36,549 nucleotides of DNA from an uncultured Faecalicoccus sp. (GCF_944325745.1 NZ_CALVBG010000007.1:1-36549); one strand, 5' to 3'; positions 1,973 to 33,915 are shown, counted from the stretch's first letter. Program-made: numbers and translations. The notes: generated from the letters alone by a model not told the origin.

Positions 1973-2305
1973 ATGAAAAAAATTGCTATGATTGGTATCA
2001 TTCTTTTTTCTGGGTTAATGATCTGTCCTACAATTATTACTGAAGCCGTTGAAAAAGATAACAACGTGTCAGAGGATCCGCAAACACAGTCTTATATAGA
2101 AAATGTATTCTCAGACCTTAACGATACAGATAAGGTCTTAGAGATGCCTAATGGTGGATTCTTATATGGAGAAGCTACAGTAATCAATCCGGATGGGTCA
2201 AGTGTTCATTACAACAGTGCTACTGACTCTAATTCAAAAACAGTTTTAGAGGCAAAGAGTTCTTTAAAAGAGCAGGCGGCCACTGGAAATTTAAAATATG
2301 AATAA
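1973..2305 (+). CDS. Exported protein of unknown function, paralogue of the next gene
   Basis: A 110-residue protein with a clear signal peptide (residues 1 to about 26). The start is supported by AGAAAGGCGG upstream. The mature part is acidic and polar. The segment VLEMPNGGFLYGEA (about residues 56-69), followed by a Y-NSATDSNSKTV-type stretch, closely matches the N-terminal part of the downstream gene product (VLEMPDGGFLYGEA, then YDSETDPDSKTV). The protein ends where the second protein continues into an extra C-terminal domain. No family was recognised. It lies 5 nt upstream of its paralogue and is probably co-transcribed with it under the blaI/M56 divergent control region. It could be a stand-alone propeptide or inhibitor-like partner, but this is speculation. 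Confidence 0.8.
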   Translation: MKKIAMIGIILFSGLMICPTIITEAVEKDNNVSEDPQTQSYIENVFSDLNDTDKVLEMPNGGFLYGEATVINPDGSSVHYNSATDSNSKTVLEAKSSLKEQAATGNLKYE

Positions 2306-2310
2306 TTGAG

Positions 2311-2976
2311 ATGAAAAAAATGAAGACTATTAGAAATTTATTATCTATAATACTAGCATCTTTTCTTCTAATGCCTGGAGTTCCTGTTTTTGCTGCAGAA
2401 AGAATGTCATTAGAAGATGCTGAAGAGCTTGTTGATCAGATGTTTGATGATATGGAGGGATCTGAAAAAGTTTTAGAAATGCCTGATGGTGGATTCTTAT
2501 ATGGTGAAGCTTATATCGCACCTGCGGAAGACATCACAGAAGTTTTGATTTCTTACGATAGCGAAACGGATCCAGATTCTAAAACAGTTGAAGAAACTAA
2601 AATTGATTTAATTGATGACTTGGTTAATGGAACTCCGACAATCCAACCGCGCGGAGCATCGGTACCTACACAAAATTATGTGTTAGGCCCGGGGGCTGTT
2701 TATAAATCCAGTCCATTTAGTGGGGCTGGCTGGCGATTCAGCGGATATATGTTCGCTCCTCGCCCGGATACTGGATATTATCTATTATGGACTTCTTATG
2801 GAGATGATGCCCGTGTTGGAGACATTGTCCAGGCCAGAAATACACTTAACGGAACTATCCAAGGCGAGATAATCTATAATGGTGTATCAAAATATATTAA
2901 TAAAGCTACACTATCGCATGTGTATTACACTTATAATCCGGTAGATGGATCATACTATGTAGTTGCTAATTATTAA
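2311..2976 (+). CDS. Exported two-part protein of unknown function
   Basis: A 221-residue protein with a signal peptide (residues 1 to about 29, ending near FAAE). Residues about 30-105 form an acidic region homologous to the upstream protein, with the shared segment VLEMPDGGFLYGEA. A linker (about 106-120) leads to a C-terminal domain of about 100 residues that is rich in Tyr, Gly, Ser and Trp, has no cysteine, and looks like a beta-rich secreted domain. I recognise no family. The start is uncertain. ATG at 2311 has almost no Shine-Dalgarno site and another in-frame ATG lies at 2320, so translation may be coupled to the gene in front. The arrangement of acidic N-part plus compact C-domain resembles a pro-protein, but no cleavage motif can be asserted. 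Confidence 0.78.
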   Translation: MKKMKTIRNLLSIILASFLLMPGVPVFAAERMSLEDAEELVDQMFDDMEGSEKVLEMPDGGFLYGEAYIAPAEDITEVLISYDSETDPDSKTVEETKIDLIDDLVNGTPTIQPRGASVPTQNYVLGPGAVYKSSPFSGAGWRFSGYMFAPRPDTGYYLLWTSYGDDARVGDIVQARNTLNGTIQGEIIYNGVSKYINKATLSHVYYTYNPVDGSYYVVANY

Positions 2977-2984
2977 TGTTAAAA

Positions 2985-3034
2985 AATTATAAGGTGTGGA
3001 TATCTCTCATACAACAAATCTCAGCCTTATAATT
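2985..3034. repeat. 10-bp inverted repeat in the 3' untranslated region
   Basis: AATTATAAGG (2985-2994) and CCTTATAATT (3025-3034) are perfect inverted repeats 30 nt apart, starting 8 nt after the stop codon of the second secreted gene. As RNA they could form a long-looped hairpin. Its role is unknown. Confidence 0.5.
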
Positions 3035-3043
3035 ATGTAAAGT

Positions 3044-3077
3044 GCCAGATTAACAACCTGGCTCTTTTCTAGTTTTT
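3044..3077 (+). terminator. Probable terminator of the secreted-protein genes
   Basis: A GCCAG/CTGGC stem (3044-3048 with 3058-3062) around a 9-nt loop is followed by a T-rich tract. The stem is short, so the terminator may be weak or may act with the inverted repeat just upstream. Confidence 0.5.
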
Positions 3078-3118
3078 ACTAAGTGGAATCATTGATGATA
3101 CAATTTGTTTTTCTATGT

Positions 3119-4321
3119 CTACTGTTTGGCAACAAATACATACGTTTGCAGACGCTCAAAAGCCACTTTGACTTTTTGAGTAGGGAGTGCCAAGTTCATG
3201 CGAATCGTGTTTTCTTTTTGGAAAGGACGGCCATCTTGCCAAAGAACGCCGACTTCGATTCCTTTTCTTAATAAGGTATCCATATCTATGGAATGACTCT
3301 TGATCCATTCTGTACAGTCCAAATATAACATGTATGTGCCTTGCGGTCGAGAGATTTGGATCTCTGGTGCCATCTTCTTTAGGGCATCCAACGCAAAGTC
3401 AATATTGGTTTCTAAAACGGAGCAGAGCTCATCGACCCATTGTTCTCCTTGTTGAGAATAAGCGCCGATCAGGGCATGGACACTGAGAATGTTCGGAGAA
3501 TTATAATGGGAGCGCGCTTCCGTTTTTAAGATCTCTTGTCGCATGTTTTGATTGAAGATCACATGGTAAGAACCGACCAGTCCCGCTAAATTAAAGGTCT
3601 TGCTGGGGGCGAAGATCGAAACGGTTCTTTGTTTGGCATCTTCATTGACCAGAGCTGTAGGAATATGCGTGTAACCAGGCAAGATCAAATCGCTCCAGAT
3701 CTCATCGCTGATCACGATACAGTCGTTGTTGCGATAGACTTCCAGTGCTTTCTCAATCTCTTCTTTTTCCCATACTCTTCCGGTTGGGTTATGAGGAGAA
3801 CAGAAGATGCAGACTTTGATGTGATATTGTTTGATCTTTTTGTCCATATCTTCATAATCCATACGCCAGATTTGATTCTCATCTAAGATCAAGGGAGAAT
3901 GGATGATCGTTCGCTGGTTGTTGTTCAAGGTCTTGGTAAATCCAATATAGGTGGGAGAGTGGACCAAAATGGGATCGTTTTCTTTTGTGAAAGTTTGTAA
4001 CACACTGCTTACGCAGCCTAAGACACCATTTTCGTATCCAATCTGTTCTTTCTTGACATCTATTTGATGCCGATCTTTTTGCCATCGAATGATGGAATCA
4101 TAGTAAGCCTGAGGCAATTCAAAGTAGCCGAAGTGTGGTTCTTGGAGACGCTTTGAAATCGCTTTTTGGATCTCGGGGAAAACCGGAAAGTTCATATCGG
4201 CCACCCACATTGGGATCTTGGTAAAGCCTTCTTTGAGTTCTGCACCTTGGATAGGCATAGAATCGAGTGCTAAGGCATCATGCCCTTCGCGATTTAAAAT
4301 CGTTGTGAAATCATAGTTCAT
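3119..4321 (-). CDS. patB: MalY/PatB family PLP-dependent C-S lyase (cystathionine beta-lyase type)
   Basis: A 400-residue fold-type I aminotransferase-like enzyme. Proteins of the MalY/PatB family cleave C-S bonds of cystathionine or cysteine conjugates, giving pyruvate, ammonia and a thiol. The family signature is visible: PMWVADMNFP near residues 37-46, SPHNPTGR (175-182), SDEIWSDL (205-212) and the PLP lysine in SKTFNLAG (K241). The length is normal. I chose ATG at 4321 because GGAGG lies 8 nt before it and MNYDF is the usual beginning; an upstream in-frame ATG at 4369 has no such support. The gene is transcribed away from the NAD operon and shares its intergenic region. Substrate choice between cystathionine and other thioethers cannot be told from sequence. 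Confidence 0.93.
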   Translation of the reverse strand: MNYDFTTILNREGHDALALDSMPIQGAELKEGFTKIPMWVADMNFPVFPEIQKAISKRLQEPHFGYFELPQAYYDSIIRWQKDRHQIDVKKEQIGYENGVLGCVSSVLQTFTKENDPILVHSPTYIGFTKTLNNNQRTIIHSPLILDENQIWRMDYEDMDKKIKQYHIKVCIFCSPHNPTGRVWEKEEIEKALEVYRNNDCIVISDEIWSDLILPGYTHIPTALVNEDAKQRTVSIFAPSKTFNLAGLVGSYHVIFNQNMRQEILKTEARSHYNSPNILSVHALIGAYSQQGEQWVDELCSVLETNIDFALDALKKMAPEIQISRPQGTYMLYLDCTEWIKSHSIDMDTLLRKGIEVGVLWQDGRPFQKENTIRMNLALPTQKVKVAFERLQTYVFVAKQ

Positions 4322-4492: not shown

Positions 4493-5401
4493 ATGGGAAT
4501 CAAGGAAGAGATATTGAGATTAAAAAAAGAAAAGAATGCCGTTATTTTGGCTCATTATTATGTCTTGCCGGAAGTTCAGGACCTTGCCGATTTTGTCGGG
4601 GATTCTTTTGCGTTAGCGAAGAAGGCCAAATCCATCGATGCTTCGATCATCGTGTTTGCCGGCGTTTCTTTTATGGGCGAAAGTGCCAAGATCCTCAACC
4701 CGGATAAAAAGGTGCTGATGCCAGACCTTGAAGCCGATTGTCCTATGGCTCATATGGCCACTTTGGCAAAGGTTCAAAAAATGCGGGAAGAGATCGATGA
4801 TTTGGCAGTGGTTTGTTATGTCAATTCAACGGCCGAACTCAAAAAAGTCAGCGATGTCTGTGTAACGAGTTCGAATGCAGTGGATATTGTTCGTAAACTT
4901 CCACAGAAAAATATCTACTTTATTCCCGATCGTCATCTCGCATCGTTTGTTCAAAATTTGGTGCCGGAAAAAAACATAATCTTAAACGAAGGGTATTGTC
5001 CGACACATCATGCGATGACCATCCAAGATGTCCAAACTGCCAAACAAGCGCATCCGCGGGCATTGGTCTTTGTTCATCCGGAATGTCCGGAAGAAGTTGT
5101 AAATTTGGCCGATTATGCCGGCAGTACCGCGGGCATCATTCAGGCTGTCAGACAAAGCGATGCGAAAGAATTTATCATCGGGACTGAAGAAGGCGTCTTG
5201 CACGAGCTTCGCAAGCAGAATCCTGAAAAGACATTCTATTTGCTGAGTGAAAACCTGGTTTGTGAAGATATGAAAAAAGTGACGTTGGAAAAGTTGGCGC
5301 AAGTGTTGCGCGATGAATCCAATGAAGTTCATTTAGATGAAAAGACCATGGAAGAGGCCTATAAAGCGATGGATACGATGTTGGAGATGGCTCAATCATG
5401 A
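4493..5401 (+). CDS. nadA: Quinolinate synthase NadA
   Basis: A 302-residue enzyme that condenses iminoaspartate with dihydroxyacetone phosphate to give quinolinate, the second step of de novo NAD synthesis in the cytoplasm. It carries a [4Fe-4S] cluster. The three expected cysteines are present at C83 (ADCPMA), C169 (GYCPTHH) and C257 (LVCEDM), with spacing as in short-form NadA. The N-terminal ILAHYYV and the STAGI segment are also typical. I chose ATG at 4493 because GGAGG lies 8 nt upstream; the in-frame TTG at 4478 lies within the poly-T tract before that site. It overlaps nadB by 4 nt (ATGA), so the two are translationally coupled. Confidence 0.96.
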   Translation: MGIKEEILRLKKEKNAVILAHYYVLPEVQDLADFVGDSFALAKKAKSIDASIIVFAGVSFMGESAKILNPDKKVLMPDLEADCPMAHMATLAKVQKMREEIDDLAVVCYVNSTAELKKVSDVCVTSSNAVDIVRKLPQKNIYFIPDRHLASFVQNLVPEKNIILNEGYCPTHHAMTIQDVQTAKQAHPRALVFVHPECPEEVVNLADYAGSTAGIIQAVRQSDAKEFIIGTEEGVLHELRKQNPEKTFYLLSENLVCEDMKKVTLEKLAQVLRDESNEVHLDEKTMEEAYKAMDTMLEMAQS

Positions 5402-7530
5402 AGTCGATCCATACCGATATCGTCATTGTAGGGACAGGTTGCAGCGGTTTGTTTGCCGCTTTACATGCCCCAAAAGAAAAAAAGATCCTGATGTTGACGA
5501 AAACGACATTAGAAGAAAGTGATTCCTTTTTGGCACAAGGCGGGATCTGTGTCCTGAAGGATTCGGATGATTATGAGAGCTTTTTTAAAGATACGATCAA
5601 GGCAGGTCATTATGAGAATCGTCGGCAGTCTGTCGAGATCATGATCAAATCTTCCCCGGAGATCATCGCCGAGTTAGAAGCATATGGTGTTCGTTTTGCC
5701 AAAGATAAAGATGGCAATCCGATCTATACGAAGGAAGGGTGTCATTCCAAGCCGCGTATTCTTTTCCATGAAGATATTACCGGCGAAGAGATCACTTCGT
5801 GTCTTTTGGCACAAGCCAAGAAACGATCCAATATTTCCTGGATGGAAAATATGACGATGGTCGATATCGTTGAAAAAGAGAATACTTGTTATGGGATCTT
5901 GGCACAAAGAAACGGGGAGACCTTTGCGATCGAAAGTGATTTTACGATCTTTGCGACCGGCGGGATCGGAGGCCTGTTTTCCAATTCAACCAATTATCCT
6001 CATCTGACCGGCGATGCGTTGGCCATCAGTTTACGGCATCATATCGCTTTGGAACATCCGGATTATATCCAGATCCATCCCACAACACTCTATTCTACGA
6101 AAAAAGGACGTCGCTTTTTGATCAGTGAGAGTGTCCGTGGAGAAGGGGCCAAATTATATGGCAAGGATGGCAAACGCTTTGCGGATGAAGTTTTACCTCG
6201 AGATTTGTTGACCCAAGAGATCTATAAGCAGATGAAAAAAGACGATATGCCTTATGTTTGGCTGGATATGACGATGTTGGGAAAAGAACAGATCCTCTCG
6301 CATTTTCCTCATATCTATCAGCATTGTTTAGATGAAGGCTACGACTGCACGAAAGAACGGATCCCTGTTGTTCCTGGACAACATTATTTTATGGGCGGGA
6401 TCCATGTGGATGCGGTCTCCAAGACAACGATGGATCAACTGTATGCGATTGGAGAAACGGCATGCAACGGAGTGCACGGAGCCAATCGGCTCGCCAGCAA
6501 TTCCTTGTTGGAAAGTTTAGTTTTTGCCAAACGGGCCATGCGCGATCTGCTGGCACAAAAACCGAAAACGACAAAAGAATTTTTAACTTTGGCCATAGAA
6601 ACGGCCAAGACATTAGAACTATCAAGCTATAAAAAAATCGTATGGAATGCGATCCGAAAAAGAAAAGAGGGAAAAAAGATGAATTCAATTACGATGTCGA
6701 TGAATGTTGATACCTTGATCCTTCAAGCACTTCGTGAAGATGTGACCAGTGAGGATATCACTACCAATGCGATCATGAAAGGATATCAGTCCGGAAGTGT
6801 ACAGCTGATCTGTAAAGAGAGCGGTGTAATTGCCGGATTGCCGGTATTTGAAAGAGTTTTCCATCTGGTTGATCCTAAGACCGAGGTCACTTTCTTTTTT
6901 CATGATGGCGACAAGGTGCAAAAAGGCGATCTGGTTGCCGAGATCTATGGGGATATCCGTTCCTTGTTGACAGGAGAAAGAACGGCACTGAATTATCTGC
7001 AGAGAATGTCCGGGATCGCAACCTATACAGCCCAGACCGTCAAACTGTTAGAAGGAACGAATATTCGGTTATTGGATACGCGCAAGACAACTCCGAATAT
7101 GCGGGTCTTTGAGAAATATGCCGTGAAAGTAGGCGGCGGCTATAATCATCGCTATAACTTGAGCGATGGGATCTTGTTGAAGGACAACCATATCGCGGCG
7201 GCCGGCGGAATCACCAACGCGATCCAGATGGCCAAAGAATATGCTTCCTTTGTTCGAAAGATCGAAGTGGAAGTAGAAAATATGGACATGGTCAAAGAAG
7301 CTGTCGAAGCCGGTGCGGATATCATTATGCTGGATAATATGACTGTGGAGCAGATGAAAGAAGCTGTGGATTATATTGCGGGCAGAGCTCTAACAGAATG
7401 TAGCGGAAATGTAACGCGCGAGAATATTGCACAATATATTCAAAGCGGCGTCGATTATATTTCCAGTGGTGCCTTGACACATTCTGCCAAGATCTTGGAC
7501 CTTTCGTTAAAGAATCTAAAAGCGGTCTGA
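5398..7530 (+). CDS. nadB-nadC: Fused L-aspartate oxidase (NadB) and quinolinate phosphoribosyltransferase (NadC)
   Basis: A 710-codon reading frame holding two NAD-pathway enzymes. Residues 1-427 are NadB, the FAD enzyme oxidising aspartate to iminoaspartate: the dinucleotide motif VGTGCSG (11-17), SFLAQGG, HPTTL, RGEGAKLYGKDGKRF, and the end signature HGANRLASNSLLE. The usual C-terminal helical domain of long NadB proteins is missing. Residues 428-710 are NadC, which makes nicotinate mononucleotide from quinolinate and PRPP: DTRKTTPNMR, GGGYNHRYNLSDGILLKDNH, EVEVEN and IIMLDN. No stop codon separates them. ATG at 6679 is preceded by GAGGG with 7-nt spacing, so a separate NadC could also be made. 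The context (nadA in front, niaR behind) confirms the pathway. Either a true bifunctional protein or a dual-start gene is possible. Confidence 0.93.
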   Translation: MKSIHTDIVIVGTGCSGLFAALHAPKEKKILMLTKTTLEESDSFLAQGGICVLKDSDDYESFFKDTIKAGHYENRRQSVEIMIKSSPEIIAELEAYGVRFAKDKDGNPIYTKEGCHSKPRILFHEDITGEEITSCLLAQAKKRSNISWMENMTMVDIVEKENTCYGILAQRNGETFAIESDFTIFATGGIGGLFSNSTNYPHLTGDALAISLRHHIALEHPDYIQIHPTTLYSTKKGRRFLISESVRGEGAKLYGKDGKRFADEVLPRDLLTQEIYKQMKKDDMPYVWLDMTMLGKEQILSHFPHIYQHCLDEGYDCTKERIPVVPGQHYFMGGIHVDAVSKTTMDQLYAIGETACNGVHGANRLASNSLLESLVFAKRAMRDLLAQKPKTTKEFLTLAIETAKTLELSSYKKIVWNAIRKRKEGKKMNSITMSMNVDTLILQALREDVTSEDITTNAIMKGYQSGSVQLICKESGVIAGLPVFERVFHLVDPKTEVTFFFHDGDKVQKGDLVAEIYGDIRSLLTGERTALNYLQRMSGIATYTAQTVKLLEGTNIRLLDTRKTTPNMRVFEKYAVKVGGGYNHRYNLSDGILLKDNHIAAAGGITNAIQMAKEYASFVRKIEVEVENMDMVKEAVEAGADIIMLDNMTVEQMKEAVDYIAGRALTECSGNVTRENIAQYIQSGVDYISSGALTHSAKILDLSLKNLKAV
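6667..6681 (+). promoter_or_regulatory. Internal ribosome binding site and ATG at the nadB/nadC junction
   Basis: GAGGG (6667-6671) followed by a 7-nt A-rich spacer and ATG (6679-6681), in frame with the nadB part. NadC proteins normally begin near this point, so a free NadC of 283 residues could be translated from here in addition to, or instead of, the fusion. Confidence 0.6.
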
Positions 7531-9015: not shown

Positions 9016-9092
<77 letters not shown>

Positions 9093-9110
9093 TTTGCTTT
9101 GATTGTTTGT

Positions 9111-9186
9111 GGGGTGTTAGCTCAGCTGGGAGAGCACCTGCTTTGCACGCAGGGGGTCAGGAGTTCGATCCTCCTACGCTCCACCA
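9111..9186 (+). tRNA. tRNA-Ala (anticodon UGC)
   Basis: A 76-nt cloverleaf with anticodon loop TTTGCAC, acceptor GGGGTGT pairing with ACGCTCC (one G-U and one U-G pair) and encoded CCA. The Ile(GAU)-Ala(UGC) pair is the combination usually found in the 16S-23S spacer of rRNA operons, but no rRNA is present here. Confidence 0.97.
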
Positions 9187-9234: not shown

Positions 9235-9266
9235 AGACGGACGCAAGGTTCGTCTTTTCTTTTTTT
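9235..9266 (+). terminator. Terminator of the tRNA-Ile/Ala transcript
   Basis: A 7-bp stem (AGACGGA with TTCGTCT, one G-U pair), a 7-nt loop and a T-rich tail of about 11 nt. Confidence 0.8.
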
Positions 9267-9469: not shown

Positions 9470-9498
9470 TTGGGCGGGTGGATGAACCATGGTATAAT
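9470..9498 (+). promoter_or_regulatory. Promoter of the ftsX-hydrolase-ftsE-ftsX operon
   Basis: An extended -10 element (TGGTATAAT, with TATAAT at 9493-9498) with a weak -35 TTGGGC (9470-9475) 17 bp upstream. The predicted start near 9505 leaves a leader of about 18 nt. Confidence 0.65.
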
Positions 9499-9522
9499 AG
9501 TTTGGATTGGATGTGAAAAGGA

Positions 9523-10425
9523 ATGATCTTATTCATAAAGTGTCTGCCTAGGCTTTTTCGACAGGCAGGAAAAGATATGCGTCGCCATTTTGCTCTGACT
9601 TTTTCGTCTGTGCTTTCGATTGCGATTGCTTTATTGATCTCCATGTTGATGCTGGTTCTGGCATGGAACGTTTCTTCTTTTACGACAAATATTGAAGAAG
9701 AACTGATCGTTCAAGTGTCTTTGAATCCGACTCTGGATGCTGCCGGGCAAGATGAACTGGAAAAAGAGATCAAAGAGATCAAGGGAATCTCTTCGGTTCG
9801 TTTCAGCGATAAAGAAGCAGAGTTGGAACAGCTGATCGAAGATTATGGAGATACCTTTTCGCAATATGAAGGAGAAGACCGCAATCCCCTCTATGATGTA
9901 TTTATCGTAGAATTAGAAGATCCTACACAAATCGATGCCATCACTTCCCAGATCTCTAAGATGGATGGGGTTATAGAAGCGACTTATGGAACGGATACAG
10001 TCAATACAATGGTGCAATTGTTTTCCTCTGTCCGTATCGGCGGATTAGTGTTTGTCGCAGCGTTGATCTGTTTGGCCATCTTTTTGATTCGCAATACGAT
10101 CAAATTAGCGATCCAAGTTCGTAAAGATGAGATCCAGATCATGCGGCAAGTAGGCGCCATGAACTGGTATATCACTGTGCCTTTTGTGCTGGAAGGATTA
10201 TTGACCGGCTTTTTTGGGGCCTTGATTCCTTCTTTGATCTGTGTCTTTGGCTATACCGCTTTATATCAGGCTTTAAACGGCGTGTTTATCTCAGAACTGT
10301 TTGTTTTGAAAAGCCCCTATCCGTTTCTTCTGTATGTTTGCGGCGTATTATTTTTGATTGGTATTCTGGCGGGCATGTTCGGAAGCTATTTGGCGAGTCG
10401 AAAGTATTTGAGGTGGACAAGATGA
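9523..10425 (+). CDS. ftsX: FtsX-like permease, first copy
   Basis: A 300-residue membrane protein with FtsX topology: a cytosolic N-terminus, TM1 (about 25-48), an external domain (about 50-165, with FSDKEAELEQLIEDYG) and three more membrane segments (about 170-190, 220-245, 265-290). The signature MRQVGAMNWYI follows TM2. FtsX partners with the ATPase FtsE and transmits ATP cycles across the membrane to activate peptidoglycan hydrolases with coiled-coil domains. The hydrolase is the next gene, which overlaps by 4 nt. ATG at 9523 has an AAGGA box immediately against it (0-nt spacing), an odd arrangement, but no better start is visible. A second, diverged FtsX of identical length ends the ftsE pair downstream. 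Confidence 0.92.
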   Translation: MILFIKCLPRLFRQAGKDMRRHFALTFSSVLSIAIALLISMLMLVLAWNVSSFTTNIEEELIVQVSLNPTLDAAGQDELEKEIKEIKGISSVRFSDKEAELEQLIEDYGDTFSQYEGEDRNPLYDVFIVELEDPTQIDAITSQISKMDGVIEATYGTDTVNTMVQLFSSVRIGGLVFVAALICLAIFLIRNTIKLAIQVRKDEIQIMRQVGAMNWYITVPFVLEGLLTGFFGALIPSLICVFGYTALYQALNGVFISELFVLKSPYPFLLYVCGVLFLIGILAGMFGSYLASRKYLRWTR

Positions 10426-11789
10426 GAAAACGAAATCGTGTTATGATGTGCTGCTTGCTGATCTTTGGCATGAGCTCTGTTCTTCCTGTGTATGCCCAAG
10501 AGTATTCCGATAGTGACTATTGGGTCCAAAAGTGTTCTCAACCGCAAAACTCACAAGCGGATGTGCAGGCGTGCCAGGGATTTCAGACTGTTCAGCAGCA
10601 GCGTTATGAAGAACTGCAAGCCAATATTGAACAATATTCGAATGATATTGCTTCTTTGCAGGCGGATACCGAGAAAATGGAAGAGCTGGCAAAGACGCAA
10701 AAAGAACTGCAGGAAACTTTGGAAGGTCAGATCCAGGAAAAAGAAGCAGCTCTGCAGACGATCCAGGAACAGATCAAAAAATTGGATACCGAGATCCAGA
10801 AAAAACAAGAAGAGATCGATGCCTGGAACAAGCAGATCGTGACGCGGATGCAGGAGGAACAATCCAATACAGGGACAAATATGGTTGTCGATCTGATCAT
10901 GGGATCCTCCGATCTGAATGATATGTTACGACGAATTACAGGGCTAGAACGGATCACAGAAGATGATCAGGACCAAATTGAGCAGTTAAAAGAATTAAAG
11001 GCCGAACTGGATCTTCAGAAATCCGAACAAGTCCGTTTGGAAGAAGATACAAAATCTCAACAAGATCAATTGGAGAGTCAGCGCCAGCAGGCGCAACAGC
11101 TTGAAGAATCGTATAACCAGCTGGCAGAACAATACCAACAGAAGATGGCGGAATTACAGGCAGCCAAACAAGCCGCTTTTAACGATATTGAATCGTTGCG
11201 CTCCAATATGATCTCGGTAAGCTATTCCGGCACTTTGACCAATGTCAGCGGTTTTACGGCTCCCATATCCGGAGGCCGGATCTCGGCTGGTACATGGGCT
11301 TATTCTGGCGGTGGTCTGCATCTGGGGATGGATTATGCGGTCCCAATCGGGACACCGGTCAAAGCGCCGGCTAACGGCGTGATCTTGTATGCAAACAATC
11401 CGGCTCCTTCGAATGGCGGTTATTTAGGCAACTGGAGCGGATATCCTTTTGGCGGCGGCAATACCTTCGAGATGATCTGTATGGTCAATGGAACTACTTA
11501 TGCCATCAGTTTTGCACATTTATCACAAGAAGGATTTGCGGTTTCTGCCGGGCAGAGCGTTGTTCAGGGGCAGACACTGGCATTAACAGGAAATTCCGGC
11601 AATTCCAGCGGACCTCATTGCCATATCGAAGTTTATAATTTAGGCACGATGTCTTTAGAAGAAGCAATCTCACGGTTTTCCAGCTCGGCTGATTTTGCCT
11701 GGGGTACGGGATGGAATACTACCGCAACAGCTTGTGAAAACGGGCATGGAACACCATGCCGTGAAAGACCGGAGCGTTTCTTCGGATAG
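10422..11789 (+). CDS. PcsB/EnvC-like murein hydrolase: coiled coil plus M23 peptidase
   Basis: A 455-residue exported protein. It has a signal peptide (1 to about 26), a long Gln/Glu-rich coiled coil with a helical break (about 50-260), and a C-terminal M23 LytM domain (about 275-405). The zinc ligands appear intact: H300 and D304 (HLGMD), and H399/H401 (PHCHIE). It may therefore be a real endopeptidase rather than a degenerate activator such as EnvC. Cysteines C38, C51, C438 and C446 lie in the N- and C-terminal mature regions. The coiled coil is the expected docking element for FtsX, encoded on both sides. I chose ATG at 10422 because it overlaps the ftsX stop (ATGA) and begins the signal peptide; the longer frame from 10338 runs inside ftsX. 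Confidence 0.92.
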   Translation: MRKRNRVMMCCLLIFGMSSVLPVYAQEYSDSDYWVQKCSQPQNSQADVQACQGFQTVQQQRYEELQANIEQYSNDIASLQADTEKMEELAKTQKELQETLEGQIQEKEAALQTIQEQIKKLDTEIQKKQEEIDAWNKQIVTRMQEEQSNTGTNMVVDLIMGSSDLNDMLRRITGLERITEDDQDQIEQLKELKAELDLQKSEQVRLEEDTKSQQDQLESQRQQAQQLEESYNQLAEQYQQKMAELQAAKQAAFNDIESLRSNMISVSYSGTLTNVSGFTAPISGGRISAGTWAYSGGGLHLGMDYAVPIGTPVKAPANGVILYANNPAPSNGGYLGNWSGYPFGGGNTFEMICMVNGTTYAISFAHLSQEGFAVSAGQSVVQGQTLALTGNSGNSSGPHCHIEVYNLGTMSLEEAISRFSSSADFAWGTGWNTTATACENGHGTPCRERPERFFG

Positions 11790-11798
11790 GAGGTTGTC

Positions 11799-12482
11799 AT
11801 GATCGAATTTAAAAATGTTACAAAATCATATCCGAACGGGGTCCATGCCCTAAATCGTATTTCTTTAGAAATCGAAGATGGGGAATTTATCTATATTATC
11901 GGACCCACCGGATCCGGCAAAAGTACAATCATCAAGATCTTAAATGGGGAAGAAGTACCGGATTCGGGCTTGGTGATGGTGGATAATGTTGATGTGGGAA
12001 GCTTGAAACATCGTAAAGTTCCTCAATATCGACGAAACATTGGCTGTGTCTTTCAAGATTATCGCTTGTTGCCGGCTTTGACCGTGCAGGAAAATATTGC
12101 GTTCGCTTTAGAGGTGTTAGGACTTCCCAAGAAAATGATCCGTAAACGGGTCCAGGAAGTCTTGGAACTGGTCGATCTGAAAGAAAAGGCACGCGCTTAT
12201 CCCGATGAGCTTTCCGGCGGTCAGCAGCAGCGTGTGACGATCGGACGGGCCATCGCCAACCGACCCAAGATCTTGATTGCGGATGAACCGACAGGAAATT
12301 TAGACCCTGAGAAATCACGTGAGATTATTGCCTTGTTGGAGAAGATCAACGCGATGGGAACGACCGTGGTCATGGTGACGCACGATATCGTTCTGGTCAA
12401 TGAATTCAAAAAGCGCACGATCACATTGGATCAGGGCTTTGTGGTAAAAGATTCAAAGAAAGGCGGCTATGTGAGCGTATGA
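11799..12482 (+). CDS. ftsE: Cell division ABC transporter ATPase FtsE
   Basis: A 227-residue ABC ATPase of the FtsE/LolD-like group. It has Walker A GPTGSGKST (35-43), signature LSGGQQQR, Walker B LIADEP with the D-loop GNLD, and H-loop MVTHDI. FtsE with FtsX powers conformational control of septal cell-wall hydrolases and does not itself transport a known substrate. It starts 9 nt after the M23 hydrolase with an AGGAGG site, and overlaps the second ftsX by 4 nt. With one ATPase gene between two ftsX genes, one FtsE dimer may serve an FtsX1/FtsX2 heterodimer or two alternative homodimers. Length is normal. Confidence 0.95.
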   Translation: MIEFKNVTKSYPNGVHALNRISLEIEDGEFIYIIGPTGSGKSTIIKILNGEEVPDSGLVMVDNVDVGSLKHRKVPQYRRNIGCVFQDYRLLPALTVQENIAFALEVLGLPKKMIRKRVQEVLELVDLKEKARAYPDELSGGQQQRVTIGRAIANRPKILIADEPTGNLDPEKSREIIALLEKINAMGTTVVMVTHDIVLVNEFKKRTITLDQGFVVKDSKKGGYVSV

Positions 12483-13381
12483 AACGATGGTTATCGCTGT
12501 TGTTTTATGAATTCAAGTATGCCTTCCTGGGGATCCGTAAGCATCTATTGTTGACGATATCCGCTATCAGCTGTATGATCGTTTCTTTATTTTTGATCGG
12601 CCTGTTTTTATTGATGGGACTGCATGTGGATCATTTCGCAACGAATGTACAGCACGATATGAGTATCCATGTCGTATTGAATCAAAAGATCGAAGATCAG
12701 GAAACGATCCGACAAATCGAAAAAGAAATCGATTCGATATCGAATGTGGAGTCGATTACATTCTCGGATAAAGATCAAGAATTAGAATTGATGATCCAGG
12801 AAAAAGGCGAAGCTTTCGGCCTATATCGGGGAGAAGAAAATCCTTTATCTCACGCCTTTTTTGTGATGGTCAAAGATAGTTCCAAGATCGATCAAACCGC
12901 CAATAAAATCGAAGAATTAGAAGGTGTAAGTTCAGTGGCTTACGGCGGATCGAGTGTTCGTGATTTGATCGATTTGATGGATATTGCCCGTAAGGTGGGC
13001 TATGGATTGGCTGTGCTTCTTTTGGTCTTATCGCTGTATTTGATCTATAATACGATCAAGACCACGATCTATTCCCGCCAAGAAGAGATCGCCATTATGC
13101 GTCAAGTGGGAGCTTCCAATGCGTTTATTCGGATTCCGTTTGAGATCCAGGGAGTTTTGATTGGAGGCATTGGAGCTCTGGTTCCTTGTTTATTGTTAGT
13201 TTTTGGATATCCAAAGCTTTATGAACAGATGCACGGGATCCTTTTCTCGCATCTATTCTCTTTGATCGAGCCGGCACAAGTTTTCTGGACTGTAGGAAGT
13301 TGTGTTGTAGTTTCGGGCTTGCTGGTGGGCATCCTTGCCAGTTTGTTGGCAGTGGGTAAATCCCTGCGCGTCAACCGTTAA
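12479..13381 (+). CDS. ftsX: FtsX-like permease, second copy
   Basis: A 300-residue paralogue of the first FtsX in this operon, with the same plan: TM1 about 22-48, an external domain to about 168 (FSDKDQELELMIQEKGEAFG aligns with the first copy), then three membrane segments. The conserved MRQVGASNAFI matches MRQVGAMNWYI of copy one. Sequence outside these blocks has diverged strongly, especially the external domain that would contact the hydrolase coiled coil, so the duplication is old. It overlaps ftsE by 4 nt, as in ordinary ftsEX operons, so this copy is the orthodox partner by position. Both copies look intact, which argues for distinct roles. Confidence 0.93.
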   Translation: MKRWLSLLFYEFKYAFLGIRKHLLLTISAISCMIVSLFLIGLFLLMGLHVDHFATNVQHDMSIHVVLNQKIEDQETIRQIEKEIDSISNVESITFSDKDQELELMIQEKGEAFGLYRGEENPLSHAFFVMVKDSSKIDQTANKIEELEGVSSVAYGGSSVRDLIDLMDIARKVGYGLAVLLLVLSLYLIYNTIKTTIYSRQEEIAIMRQVGASNAFIRIPFEIQGVLIGGIGALVPCLLLVFGYPKLYEQMHGILFSHLFSLIEPAQVFWTVGSCVVVSGLLVGILASLLAVGKSLRVNR

Positions 13382-13397: not shown

Positions 13398-14843
13398 ATG
13401 AAAAAAGCTGAGTATAAAGAAACGACTCTGACAGTAATCATTGTGATCTTATGCCTTCTCTTTTTTGGCTTGGGTGTTTCAGTCCCTATGATCTTTGATC
13501 GAGGGACAAAATCCGAAGATGTTGCCAGTGACGAGAAATTTAATGCGATCTATGATCTGCTTCGGGAAGAGTGGTATTTTGCCGATGAAGTGGAAGATAT
13601 CGATAAAGTTTTATTAGAAAAGGCCATCGAAGGGATGACCGATCTGGAAGAAGATCCGCATACGAATTATTATGATCTTGAGTCTGCTCAAAAATTCTCA
13701 GAAAGTTTGGAGGGCTCGAATGTGGGCTTGGGAATGTCTTATTTTCTCGATGAAGATCAAAACTTTGTAGTCAAGGATGTTTTCCTGGATTCACCGGCTG
13801 AAAAAGCAGGATTACAAACAGGCGATGTGATTACAACGATCGATGGGCAGGCTTGTTCACAGAACGACTCAGATACTTTGGTTCAGCGGATCAAAGATCA
13901 TGAAGGCACACCGTTAGAGATCGTTTATACTCATGAGGGAGAATCCCATTCCATAACAATCGAACCGACAGAGTATGATGAGACTGTCTCTTGTCAGTTA
14001 TTTGAAGATCAAGGATTTGCCTTACTCCGCCTGACAAGTTTCTCTGAAAACAGCGGAGCGGATTTTGCGAAAGCTATGAAGCGGATCCAAGAAGCCGGGA
14101 TCCAAGATCTGATCCTGGATCTAAGAGGCAATACCGGAGGATATCTGAGTGCTGCCGTAGATATTGCCAGTTCTTTATTGCCGAAAGGTAGCGTAGTCGT
14201 ACAAGAAGAAGATAAAGACGGGCATCGCAGTGAATCGAAAACAAACGATGACTACGATCAAGTCAAGTTAGATCAGATCGTAATTCTTCAAAATGCAACC
14301 ACGGCCAGTGCCAGTGAAGCGCTGATCGGCGCACTCAAAGATAATCTGGGCTCTGTGGTGACTACGGTGGGAACGACTTCTTATGGAAAAGGAACGGAAC
14401 AAACCAGTGTTCCTTTCAGTGATGGAACAAGCATCAAATATACGATCGCCAAATGGTTTACACCGAATGGAGAATCGATCGATCAAGTTGGATTTGTTCC
14501 CGATGTAGAAGTTTCTTCTTCCGAAATTGAAAATGTACAATACAATGCGGAAGAAACAAAAAACACACTGGAACCCGATACAGTTTCTGTCAACGCGAAG
14601 GCAGTTCAGATCTTCTTGAAGTATTTGGGGTATTCTGCCGATCGGACCGATGAGTATTTTTCGGAGGCGAGCAGCGAAGCCTTAAAACTGTTCCAAAAGG
14701 ATAATGCCTTGTCGATCAGCGGCAAGTGCGATCCGCAGACATGGGAAAAGCTGTATCAGAAAGCGATGTTGAAATACAATCAAGATACTTTATATACCGA
14801 TCAACAGATCGAAACGGCGATTGATCAGCTCGAGGCATCTTAG
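13398..14843 (+). CDS. S41 C-terminal processing peptidase with PDZ and peptidoglycan-binding domains
   Basis: A 481-residue membrane-anchored serine protease of the CtpA/CtpB family. It has a TM anchor at 11-32, a PDZ domain at about 105-185, and an S41 domain at about 195-370. The catalytic serine S306 lies in TTASASEAL and the lysine K331 in TSYGKGTEQ, with the usual 25-residue gap. A C-terminal peptidoglycan-binding domain follows at about 395-475 (KYLGYSADR... SEALKLFQKDN). Such proteases trim exported proteins, often cell-wall enzymes. ATG at 13398 is preceded by AAAGGAAG and starts the membrane anchor. It lies 16 nt after ftsX2 and ends in the operon terminator, so it plausibly processes the M23 hydrolase or other partners of this operon. 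Confidence 0.93.
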   Translation: MKKAEYKETTLTVIIVILCLLFFGLGVSVPMIFDRGTKSEDVASDEKFNAIYDLLREEWYFADEVEDIDKVLLEKAIEGMTDLEEDPHTNYYDLESAQKFSESLEGSNVGLGMSYFLDEDQNFVVKDVFLDSPAEKAGLQTGDVITTIDGQACSQNDSDTLVQRIKDHEGTPLEIVYTHEGESHSITIEPTEYDETVSCQLFEDQGFALLRLTSFSENSGADFAKAMKRIQEAGIQDLILDLRGNTGGYLSAAVDIASSLLPKGSVVVQEEDKDGHRSESKTNDDYDQVKLDQIVILQNATTASASEALIGALKDNLGSVVTTVGTTSYGKGTEQTSVPFSDGTSIKYTIAKWFTPNGESIDQVGFVPDVEVSSSEIENVQYNAEETKNTLEPDTVSVNAKAVQIFLKYLGYSADRTDEYFSEASSEALKLFQKDNALSISGKCDPQTWEKLYQKAMLKYNQDTLYTDQQIETAIDQLEAS

Positions 14844-14857
14844 GATGCCTCTTTTTT
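14832..14857 (+). terminator. Terminator of the ftsX-ctp operon
   Basis: GAGGCATC/GATGCCTC 8-bp stem with a 4-nt loop and six Ts. The stop codon of the S41 protease lies partly in the loop, so terminator and coding end overlap. Confidence 0.9.
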
Positions 14858-31425: not shown

Positions 31426-33915
31426 TTATAACCAACTAAAGATGTTGAATAGAAATCTTCTAGGAAGACCAAGAAGTCCTGTGGTTTGTAAGGACTGCGT
31501 TGTCGCACCGGCATTTGGATCGGTCGTTTCTCCGCCAGTTCCCGGATCAACGGTTCCGCCGCCAGTTCCCGGATCGGTTGTTCCACCGCCAGTTCCGGGG
31601 TCTGTCGTTTCTCCGCCGGTACCAGGATCGGTCGTTTCACCGCCCGTTCCCGGATCCGTAGGCCAAGTACATACACCGTTAGACCATGTACCACCTTGGT
31701 TGATGCAATCTTGTTGAGCTTGATCGACCTCTGGTTCCGTTTCTTCTGGTTTTTCTTCTTCTTTTGTTTCTTCCTCTTCTTCGTCTTCTTCGTCTTCGCT
31801 TTCGTCCTTAGCGTTGCCGCCCGTTACTTTCGAATCGCCTTGTGATAAGAATTCCGTTTTGATATAACCGCCATTATAGCTCGATACGCCACCAGGTTTT
31901 TCTATATCCTTGTAGTTATAGAATTGAGCACAATAGTCAATTAAATAATCTGTAATGTAGAATCCTGTAGCCTGATATAAAACGCTGGTCGTAAAATAGT
32001 AACCTTGTTTTTCCATTTCAAAGGTATATCCTAACCAGGTTGCTACAGAAATATCGCTCGTGTATCCGACAGACCATTCATCACGATAGTTTCCGTTTGG
32101 AATACCATATTGGGCACCGTCAATCCCCCAGTCGGATGTACCGGATTTTCCATACACGGCATAATTTGGATTGTATAAGATATCATTGAACATCCCGTAG
32201 TTACCGGATACAACATTTTCCAAAAGATACGATGTCATGAACGCGGCTTCTTCACTGATCAAATCATATTCCGTAGTATCTCCAGCTGTTTCTTTATTGT
32301 CTGAACGACGGATGACATTGCGAACAGTATGGTCATTGACACGAGTTCCGCCATTGGCCAACATGGTATATGCGCTTGCCTGTTGACGAGGAGAGGCATA
32401 CATATCGCTTCCGCCAATCGAATATTGTTCTACAAACGATTCACATCGCCTTTCCGAATAGCCCAGCTTCTTACAGAATTCAACCCAATAATCATAGCCT
32501 GTTTGATTGACTAGTTCGATCATTGCCTGCGCTGCCGGTGTATTTAAGGATAAACCTAAAGCAGTCTTCAAATTCACAACACCATGATATGTATGATCGG
32601 AGTTTTGAAGATTATTGCCAGAATGGAAGTAATCTTCCCCGTGGTCATTGATTCTGTGTTCCGTAGACCAGCCTAATAAATCAAAGGTAGACGAGTAAGC
32701 TAAGAGTGGTTTCATAGAAGAACCAGGCTGTCTTTCTGTGATGGAAAGATCATCTTTACCTCCGGTCGAATAGTAGGTTCTTCCGGCTCCTACCGCAATG
32801 ACTTCACCTGTGTGATTTTCCACAACGGCAAATCCTGTATTCAAAACATCATTCGGGAAGGAAATGATATTGCCGGCACAGATATCATAAGCAACTTTTT
32901 GGACATTTTGATTCAAAGTCGTGTAGATATCCATTGGTACGACCGTTGGATCTTGTCCTGTCAATTCTGTGACTTCCGTGATGACTTGGCTGATGAACGG
33001 TGAATTCGGATCAGAGCTGGTCATTTCCTGGTAATCTAATGCGAACTCTAATCGAGTATTCACAGCTAACTGATACTCAGTTTCTGTAATATATCCATGC
33101 TGAAGCATCAAGGCCAATGTTGTATTTCTTCGTTCGGTCGCATTGGCCAAATAGTCCTGATCGGTTTTGATCAGATTGTTCAACGGGTTATAAGTGTCCG
33201 GGGCATTGATGGCTCCTGCCAAGAAAGCTGCTTCTCCTAAATTTAACTGCGATACATCTTTATTAAAGAAATATTTGGCAGCCTTTTGGATGCCTCGGGT
33301 GTTATACCCGGAACCAAACCAGATATGGTTGACATAATACTCAAAGATCTCTTCTTTATCTAAGGTTTGTTCAGCAATCAAAGATAAGTAGATCTCTTGT
33401 ACTTTTAATTTGATATTGTCTAAGGTAGAAATTCCACCTTGCTCACTTTGAAGCTTTTCTTTTTGTTTGGTCGTGAAGGTATTATCGATCAGCTGCATGG
33501 TCAAGGTCGAACCACCTTGTGCTAATGATCCGCTTCGTAAATTGGTCAATGCACTGGCCAAGAAACGCGGCAAGTCAAACCCGCTGTGATCAAAATAACG
33601 CGAATCCTCAATACTCAAGAAAGCATCGATCACATCCTGCGGAATTTGTTCGTATGTAATATCTTCACGAATCTCGGCACCTAGTTCCGTTACGAGATTT
33701 CCATCGCGGTCATAAATACGCGAGTTAGAGATGGTCGTCAAATCGCCTTCTACGAACTGCATGCCTTCCGGATCATTGATGATGTTGACCAAGATAAAGA
33801 AAACAGAGATGCATCCTACTAAAAAGATAGAAAGAACTCCGATCGCTAATTTATTCCAGACATCCAATTTACGCCGTTTTTTTGTAGCGGGCGTTTTATT
33901 TTCCCCTTTGTTCAT
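31426..33915 (-). CDS. ponA: Class A penicillin-binding protein (PBP1-type)
   Basis: An 829-residue bifunctional peptidoglycan synthase. It has a cytosolic tail and TM anchor (about 20-48), a GT51 glycosyltransferase domain (about 75-260; SIEDSRYFDHSGFD and GGSTLTMQLIDN), and a transpeptidase domain (about 350-690) with S399-xx-K402 (SSMKP), SLN (GLSLNTP) and KSG (YGKSGTSD). The C-terminal tail is unusual. A run of Asp/Glu is followed by a Cys-x11-Cys segment (CINQGGTWSNGVC), then about six 9-residue repeats (DPGTGGETT) and a hydrophobic/basic end (RRFLFNIFSWL). The start has AAGGAGG upstream and overlaps the recU stop by 4 nt, the same gene pair as in Bacillus. It polymerises and cross-links glycan at the outer membrane face. 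Confidence 0.95.
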   Translation of the reverse strand: MNKGENKTPATKKRRKLDVWNKLAIGVLSIFLVGCISVFFILVNIINDPEGMQFVEGDLTTISNSRIYDRDGNLVTELGAEIREDITYEQIPQDVIDAFLSIEDSRYFDHSGFDLPRFLASALTNLRSGSLAQGGSTLTMQLIDNTFTTKQKEKLQSEQGGISTLDNIKLKVQEIYLSLIAEQTLDKEEIFEYYVNHIWFGSGYNTRGIQKAAKYFFNKDVSQLNLGEAAFLAGAINAPDTYNPLNNLIKTDQDYLANATERRNTTLALMLQHGYITETEYQLAVNTRLEFALDYQEMTSSDPNSPFISQVITEVTELTGQDPTVVPMDIYTTLNQNVQKVAYDICAGNIISFPNDVLNTGFAVVENHTGEVIAVGAGRTYYSTGGKDDLSITERQPGSSMKPLLAYSSTFDLLGWSTEHRINDHGEDYFHSGNNLQNSDHTYHGVVNLKTALGLSLNTPAAQAMIELVNQTGYDYWVEFCKKLGYSERRCESFVEQYSIGGSDMYASPRQQASAYTMLANGGTRVNDHTVRNVIRRSDNKETAGDTTEYDLISEEAAFMTSYLLENVVSGNYGMFNDILYNPNYAVYGKSGTSDWGIDGAQYGIPNGNYRDEWSVGYTSDISVATWLGYTFEMEKQGYYFTTSVLYQATGFYITDYLIDYCAQFYNYKDIEKPGGVSSYNGGYIKTEFLSQGDSKVTGGNAKDESEDEEDEEEEETKEEEKPEETEPEVDQAQQDCINQGGTWSNGVCTWPTDPGTGGETTDPGTGGETTDPGTGGGTTDPGTGGGTVDPGTGGETTDPNAGATTQSLQTTGLLGLPRRFLFNIFSWL
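31495..31656 (-). repeat. Six 27-bp tandem repeats in the ponA tail
   Basis: In-frame repeats encode DPGTGGETT and variants (GGGTT, GGGTV), the last copy (DPNAGATTQ) being degenerate. Nucleotide differences between copies are mainly synonymous or E/G changes, so copy number may vary between strains. Confidence 0.85.

Follow-up and report, generated by a model that had tools for sequence, protein, structure and literature searches.

Two diverged FtsX paralogues around one PcsB-type hydrolase and one FtsE in Faecalicoccus and relatives from its family

Gene content of the locus

The DNA analyzed here, a stretch of 36,549 bp that we refer to as the window, comes from a fragmented metagenome-assembled genome (MAG, 80% complete) of Faecalicoccus (Erysipelotrichaceae). 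Between positions 9523 and 13381 it carries two ftsX genes that flank a gene for a PcsB-type hydrolase and an ftsE gene, with a gene for a Ctp-type protease next; all five lie on the + strand. The upstream copy, ftsX1 (9523..10425), and the downstream copy, ftsX2 (12479..13381), each encode a protein of 300 aa. The hydrolase gene (10422..11789) specifies a signal peptide, a long coiled coil and an M23 (LytM) peptidase domain in which the HxxxD and HxH motifs are intact, and ftsE (11799..12482) takes the position termed E2 and is the only FtsE of the genome. The protease (13398..14843), named by inspection, combines PDZ and S41 domains with a peptidoglycan-binding-like C-terminus, and its gene is found downstream of the FtsX/PcsB module in most relatives.

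The genes are closely packed. Overlaps of 4 bases (ATGA) join the ftsX1 stop to the hydrolase start and the ftsE stop to the ftsX2 start, while 9 bases separate the hydrolase gene from ftsE and 16 bases separate ftsX2 from the protease gene. A consensus scan for terminator-like hairpins (11 found against 5.2 expected) placed one hairpin resembling an intrinsic terminator at 9235..9255 (+), after tRNA-Ile and tRNA-Ala, and another, followed by TTTTTT, at 14832..14851 (+). Because these hairpins sit before ftsX1, separating it from the tRNAs, and after the protease gene, the five genes probably form a single operon that ends with the protease. A putative promoter is the extended -10-like element TGGTATAAT (9491..9499, +), about 24 bases 5' of the ftsX1 start codon, which was read directly from the sequence, lacks a good -35 and is absent from the consensus-scan list. 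The tRNA-Ile/tRNA-Ala pair (9016-9186) immediately 5' of ftsX1 is also found near ftsX1 in several other genera and is sometimes doubled (G001, G113).

Two further genes of the window deserve mention. At 5398-7530, after nadA, a single open reading frame of 710 aa joins a NadB-like (L-aspartate oxidase) and a NadC-like (quinolinate phosphoribosyltransferase) part, all named by inspection; full-length fusions of the same kind are present in L003 and L049 (94% identical) and in L048 (82%). At 31426-33915 lies a class A penicillin-binding protein, also recognized by inspection, with a series of DPGTGGETT-like repeats at its C-terminus.

Both FtsX proteins exceed the cut-off of 225 bits for FtsX_Gpos (NF038347, NCBIfam), FtsX1 with 305 and FtsX2 with 290 bits, and both contain FtsX_ECD (PF18075) and the C-terminal FtsX permease domain (PF02687). 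They are 37% identical over 290 aa and have MRQVGA in common. FtsX1 shares 93% identity with a protein of Faecalicoccus acidiformans. AlphaFold2 monomer models, built from 12-sequence alignments (mean pLDDT 78 for FtsX1 and 82 for FtsX2), predict helices and strands in the order expected of FtsX, with four transmembrane (TM) segments, an elbow helix, an extracellular domain (ECD) between TM1 and TM2 and a coupling helix between TM2 and TM3. The best PDB match for both models was FtsX 8ymc, at TM-scores of 0.71 (FtsX1) and 0.64 (FtsX2). The ECD fold is retained in both models and the coupling-helix motif EI.IMR.VGA in both copies, and dN/dS is about 0.04 for each, a sign of strong purifying selection on the two genes alike.

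FtsE matches TIGR02673 with 280.5 bits (cut-off 264.85), and its Walker A, LSGGQ signature, Walker B and H-loop are intact. The hydrolase, which is secreted and adjoins the ftsE and ftsX genes, matches CC_PcsB (PF24568) with 36.4 bits (cut-off 27) and Peptidase_M23 (PF01551) with 63.9 bits; by analogy with studied FtsEX systems, it is putatively bound to FtsX and activated by the FtsE ATP cycle. Genome-wide, the MAG holds exactly two FtsX_ECD matches, one FtsE over the cut-off and one CC_PcsB protein. A first-pass annotation of the sequence had proposed two full-length FtsX of 300 residues each, sharing MRQVGA and flanking a PcsB-like hydrolase and one FtsE. The reading frames, profile scores and alignment bear this out for the two proteins, as do the gene and domain calls and genome counts for the layout.

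Distribution and evolutionary history of the pair

The canonical FtsEX system has one FtsX per genome or locus, and two are present in the window genome and in 15 genera. Among sampled genomes of the same GTDB family, the X1-X2 pair was found in 30 out of 146, covering 15 of the 60 genera; in one of these carriers (G084) X1 and X2 lie on different contigs. Most other sampled genomes of the family have one FtsX, and so does nearly every sampled genome of a sister family in the same order, where a second match in G150 fell below the cut-off. A scan of 245 genomes across the phylum, many of them small and lacking FtsX, did not turn up the pair outside this family. Four nearly complete family members (G056, G016, G003 and G011) showed neither an FtsX_ECD match nor a strong FtsE, and the near-absence of any candidates in two of them (G016 and G056) may point to a problem with the data. 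A literature search in open-access papers returned no description of two FtsX with one FtsE.

About 90 relatives were used to trace the origin of the arrangement. The usual single-copy order is E-X-P-Ctp (E, FtsE; X, FtsX; P, the PcsB-type hydrolase). Doublet loci come in three orders: E1-X1-P-E2-X2 in three genomes from three genera (G006, G043 and G052), where genome counts confirm two FtsE each; E-X1-P-X2 in genus g50; and X1-P-E-X2 in the remainder, including the window. The other doublet genomes that were checked have one FtsE, and none of these single-FtsE genomes has a second FtsE over the cut-off elsewhere.

Since the source genome is a fragmented MAG, the arrangement could in principle be an assembly artefact, or else a recent and transient duplication. 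Two isolates, F. acidiformans DSM 26963 (L003) and F. pleomorphus DSM 20574 (L004), carry the same locus, which rules out a chimera of the MAG, and closely related near-complete genomes agree with the 80% complete window genome. Together with the occurrence in 15 genera, the 37% identity between the copies and a single deep duplication in the tree, the isolate genomes lead us to reject these explanations with near certainty.

A phylogeny of both copies, which the first-pass annotation had suggested as a check, resolved them into separate clades, X1 (support 96/99, bootstrap/SH-aLRT) and X2 (100/99), with one of each in every doublet genome. Trees constrained to unite the two copies of the crown genera, or those of genus g50, in a separate clade were rejected by AU tests (p 0.006 and 0.004, respectively), and with them independent duplications or gene conversion in these groups. 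X1 and X2 stem from one ancient duplication.

The history of ftsE is less uniform. In the two-FtsE genomes (G006, G043 and G052), FtsE1 branches outside the clade containing their FtsE2 and the only FtsE of G014, G055 and G088 (98/96); the lineages of the latter three therefore lost FtsE1. That FtsE1 is a recent copy of FtsE2 within the two-FtsE genomes is disfavored (AU p 0.026). On a tree of X1, X2 and P, parsimony required a minimum of 3 changes for FtsE1 and a single one for the downstream slot, which was lost in genus g50, and no FtsE1 remnant was found upstream of X1 in doublets without FtsE1. The FtsE of genus g50 occupies the upstream slot and is not placed firmly with FtsE1 by the tree. 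On the basis of the FtsE tree, the parsimony changes and the absent remnants, we conclude that the second FtsE was lost repeatedly after the duplication, with either slot surviving (usually E1 was lost, in one genus the downstream copy), and that both FtsX were kept. No intact locus has lost just one FtsX. One locus that resembled a loss of X1 together with PcsB (L108 of G038, 2044-3299) is instead a chimera that passes straight from the first 45 residues of FtsE1 to the final portion of FtsX1, and the PcsB after it is broken and contains an N. It may reflect a deletion or an assembly collapse between two ftsE copies; because the chimera adjoins N in the sequence, it was left out of the counts. 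Genomes with FtsE upstream only, downstream only or in both places would be natural intermediates, and the course of evolution can be followed through the preserved stages (single FtsEX, double FtsE with double FtsX, single FtsE in either slot).

Divergence of the two copies

According to the first-pass annotation, the main differences between the copies lie in the external domain. This is true of the positions that define the two subfamilies: when 298 positions were ranked for being conserved within but different between the copies, the top ten all fell in the ECD. It does not extend to overall identity, since the ECD of the window copies (35%) is no less conserved than the elbow helix with TM1 (25%), TM2 (33%) or TM4 (34%), and clearly higher conservation is limited to the coupling helix (61%) and TM3 (50%).

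Among the 298, the five with the strongest separation between X1 and X2 (L104, Y108, S66, I128 and V126 of X1) align with F152, F158, Y114, V175 and V173 of E. coli FtsX, the match of Y108 with F158 crossing a two-residue gap. All five E. coli residues are named EnvC contacts (PMC7668044). L104 and Y108 align also with L115 and M119 of S. pneumoniae FtsX, which touch PcsB, are located in the PcsB-binding helix and whose double mutant has shape and growth defects (PMC6355983). As a whole, the E. coli contact set was enriched for X1/X2 divergence (mean 0.549 versus 0.189, p below 1e-4). The pooled S. pneumoniae contact residues alone gave no significant enrichment (p 0.16), because most of them are conserved in both copies.

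In a control comparison of two single-copy FtsX clades, however, the E. coli contact set was likewise enriched (0.427 versus 0.158). Other pairs of single-copy clades showed lesser or similar enrichment. For one pair of clades the contact positions ranked 2, 3, 4, 9 and 13 in divergence. The enrichment is thus not specific to the duplication, and it appears that the contact surface evolves fast whenever partners differ; we therefore downgraded it as a proof of subfunctionalisation. What still stands is that X1 and X2, although they share a cell and a single PcsB, differ consistently at the contact surface across genera. Relative to single-copy FtsX, the contact faces of both copies have shifted.

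The FtsX dimer is built on TM1 and TM2 of both chains, with the coupling helices on FtsE (PMC11491553). At position 180 in TM2, most X1 and single-copy proteins have A or G, and 27 of 29 X2 proteins have L. Judged from the alignment, this is a candidate change at the dimer interface, which we offer as a lead only.

Comparison with known systems and candidate complexes

The locus resembles FtsEX-PcsB of Streptococcus pneumoniae and FtsEX-CwlO of Bacillus subtilis in having an FtsE ATPase, a four-TM FtsX with an extracellular domain and a coiled-coil peptidoglycan hydrolase, the latter being directly activated in those systems. It differs from them in its two diverged FtsX per FtsE and in the gene order X1-P-E-X2. 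The hydrolases of those systems carry a CHAP or NlpC/P60 catalytic domain, whereas that of the window is M23 (LytM). An M23/LytM domain in the coiled-coil partner is a feature of FtsEX-EnvC from E. coli, P. aeruginosa and V. cholerae; EnvC is an activator without an intact catalytic site, whereas the M23 site of the window hydrolase looks catalytically intact. Both in FtsEX-EnvC and in FtsEX-RipC of M. tuberculosis, the partner is held between two FtsX ECDs, an arrangement that we propose for the window locus as well. Their two FtsX chains are identical, whereas in the present locus two separate genes may encode the asymmetry.

In E. coli, two identical FtsX ECDs bind one internally asymmetric EnvC, a single surface fitting two sites ("dual recognition", PMC7668044), and in partner-bound complexes of E. 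coli and M. tuberculosis the FtsX conformations are unequal (PMC11139282, PMC10694151). Because the two-site coiled-coil partner sits between identical chains, one FtsX surface must fit both sites in known FtsEX. The Lol system, which belongs to the same ABC class (type VII), is a LolF homodimer in most bacteria and, in a subset, a heterodimer of LolC and LolE with one ATPase and divided tasks (PMC11784454). In a similar way, the present gene set combines a single ATPase gene with two paralogous permeases, X1 and X2, that have diverged from each other and are each conserved. Unlike the present system, LolCDE and LolDF extract lipoproteins instead of activating a hydrolase and have another extracellular domain; the heterodimer proposed here is read from gene content.

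We favor an FtsE2-FtsX1-FtsX2 complex with one PcsB, because duplication could release FtsX from having to match both sites and because the Lol system took the same step. Such a complex, with one hydrolase site per FtsX and analogous to LolCDE, seems to us somewhat more probable than its absence. The narrower proposal that each FtsX is specialised for one of the two dissimilar sides of one coiled-coil hydrolase, which may make this the first FtsEX whose asymmetry is encoded genetically, we rate as an even call. The first-pass annotation had spoken of a new variation of the FtsEX system; as a gene arrangement this is real, ancient, spread over 15 genera and, among the genomes sampled, limited to part of the family, and the heterodimeric complex itself is the best-supported reading, given two FtsX per FtsE and PcsB, the repeated loss of FtsE but never of one FtsX, and the divergence of the hydrolase face. 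We infer the physical pairing of X1 with X2, the specialisation for one site each and the activation cycle, the latter taken over from studied FtsEX systems. The ancient duplication of ftsEX around pcsB would have let each FtsX specialise for one hydrolase site, upon which the spare ftsE would have become dispensable and been lost several times, and both FtsX indispensable. One FtsE dimer would drive an FtsX1-FtsX2 heterodimer holding one PcsB-type M23 hydrolase; the binding of ATP to FtsE would bring X1 and X2 together, put a twist on the coiled coil and uncover the M23 active site, which would then cleave peptidoglycan in division. Against this stands the fact that the 4-base overlaps link X1 to PcsB and FtsE to X2 but do not link the two FtsX to each other.

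The main rival to the heterodimer is a pair of homodimers, FtsE2-X1-X1 and FtsE2-X2-X2, that share the FtsE pool but have distinct partners or act at separate moments, X1 for instance with PcsB at the septum and X2 with another wall enzyme. Each FtsX keeps all parts of a full FtsX, their contact faces differ, and one copy may have a partner other than PcsB. Sharing of FtsE has parallels in the family: four genomes (G006, G043, G052 and G088; loci L056, L067, L073 and L075) have a third FtsX, X3 (clade support 100/100), beside its own PcsB-like hydrolase of 464-518 aa with no FtsE nearby. These X3-PcsB2 pairs are orphans that must borrow an FtsE or work without one, and as no extra FtsE accompanies them, one FtsE can probably serve more than one FtsX. 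Genomes such as G088, with three FtsX (X1, X2 and X3) and one FtsE, make sharing by separate FtsX complexes plausible. Another genome (G128, genus g60, L079) has the order FtsE-FtsX-FtsX-PcsB-PcsB, a separate and independent FtsX duplication in which FtsX and hydrolase are both doubled beside one FtsE. In these cases, however, the added FtsX brings its own hydrolase, whereas the X1-X2 pair doubles FtsX alone, and most doublet genomes hold one CC_PcsB protein genome-wide. With one FtsE and, in most doublet genomes, one such protein, the two FtsX appear to serve one hydrolase. Were the complexes separate, one would less expect X1 and X2 to be retained so strictly together next to one hydrolase, and we consider the homodimers unlikely, although worth keeping in mind.

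It is more doubtful still that homo- and heterodimers both form, with partly interchangeable copies whose ratio tunes hydrolase activity. One operon probably expresses both FtsX, and mixed dimers are sterically plausible because the TM segments are 25-50% identical, with TM3 and the coupling helix the most conserved; yet the consistent clade-wide differences since the duplication, TM2 position 180 among them, point to specialisation and not to redundancy. That one copy is a non-signalling paralogue, such as a localisation factor or an inhibitor that does not work through FtsE, we hold to be very improbable: the movement of both contact faces away from the single-copy state would fit, but both copies retain the coupling-helix motif and the ECD fold under the same low dN/dS.

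Research on cell division has yet to explain how a symmetric FtsEX dimer passes its signal to a single asymmetric hydrolase. If the heterodimer holds, each side of the complex would be separately mutable, which E. coli and S. pneumoniae do not allow unless they are engineered, and the lineage would join LolC/LolE as the second instance in which a homodimeric type VII ABC permease has turned into a heterodimer.
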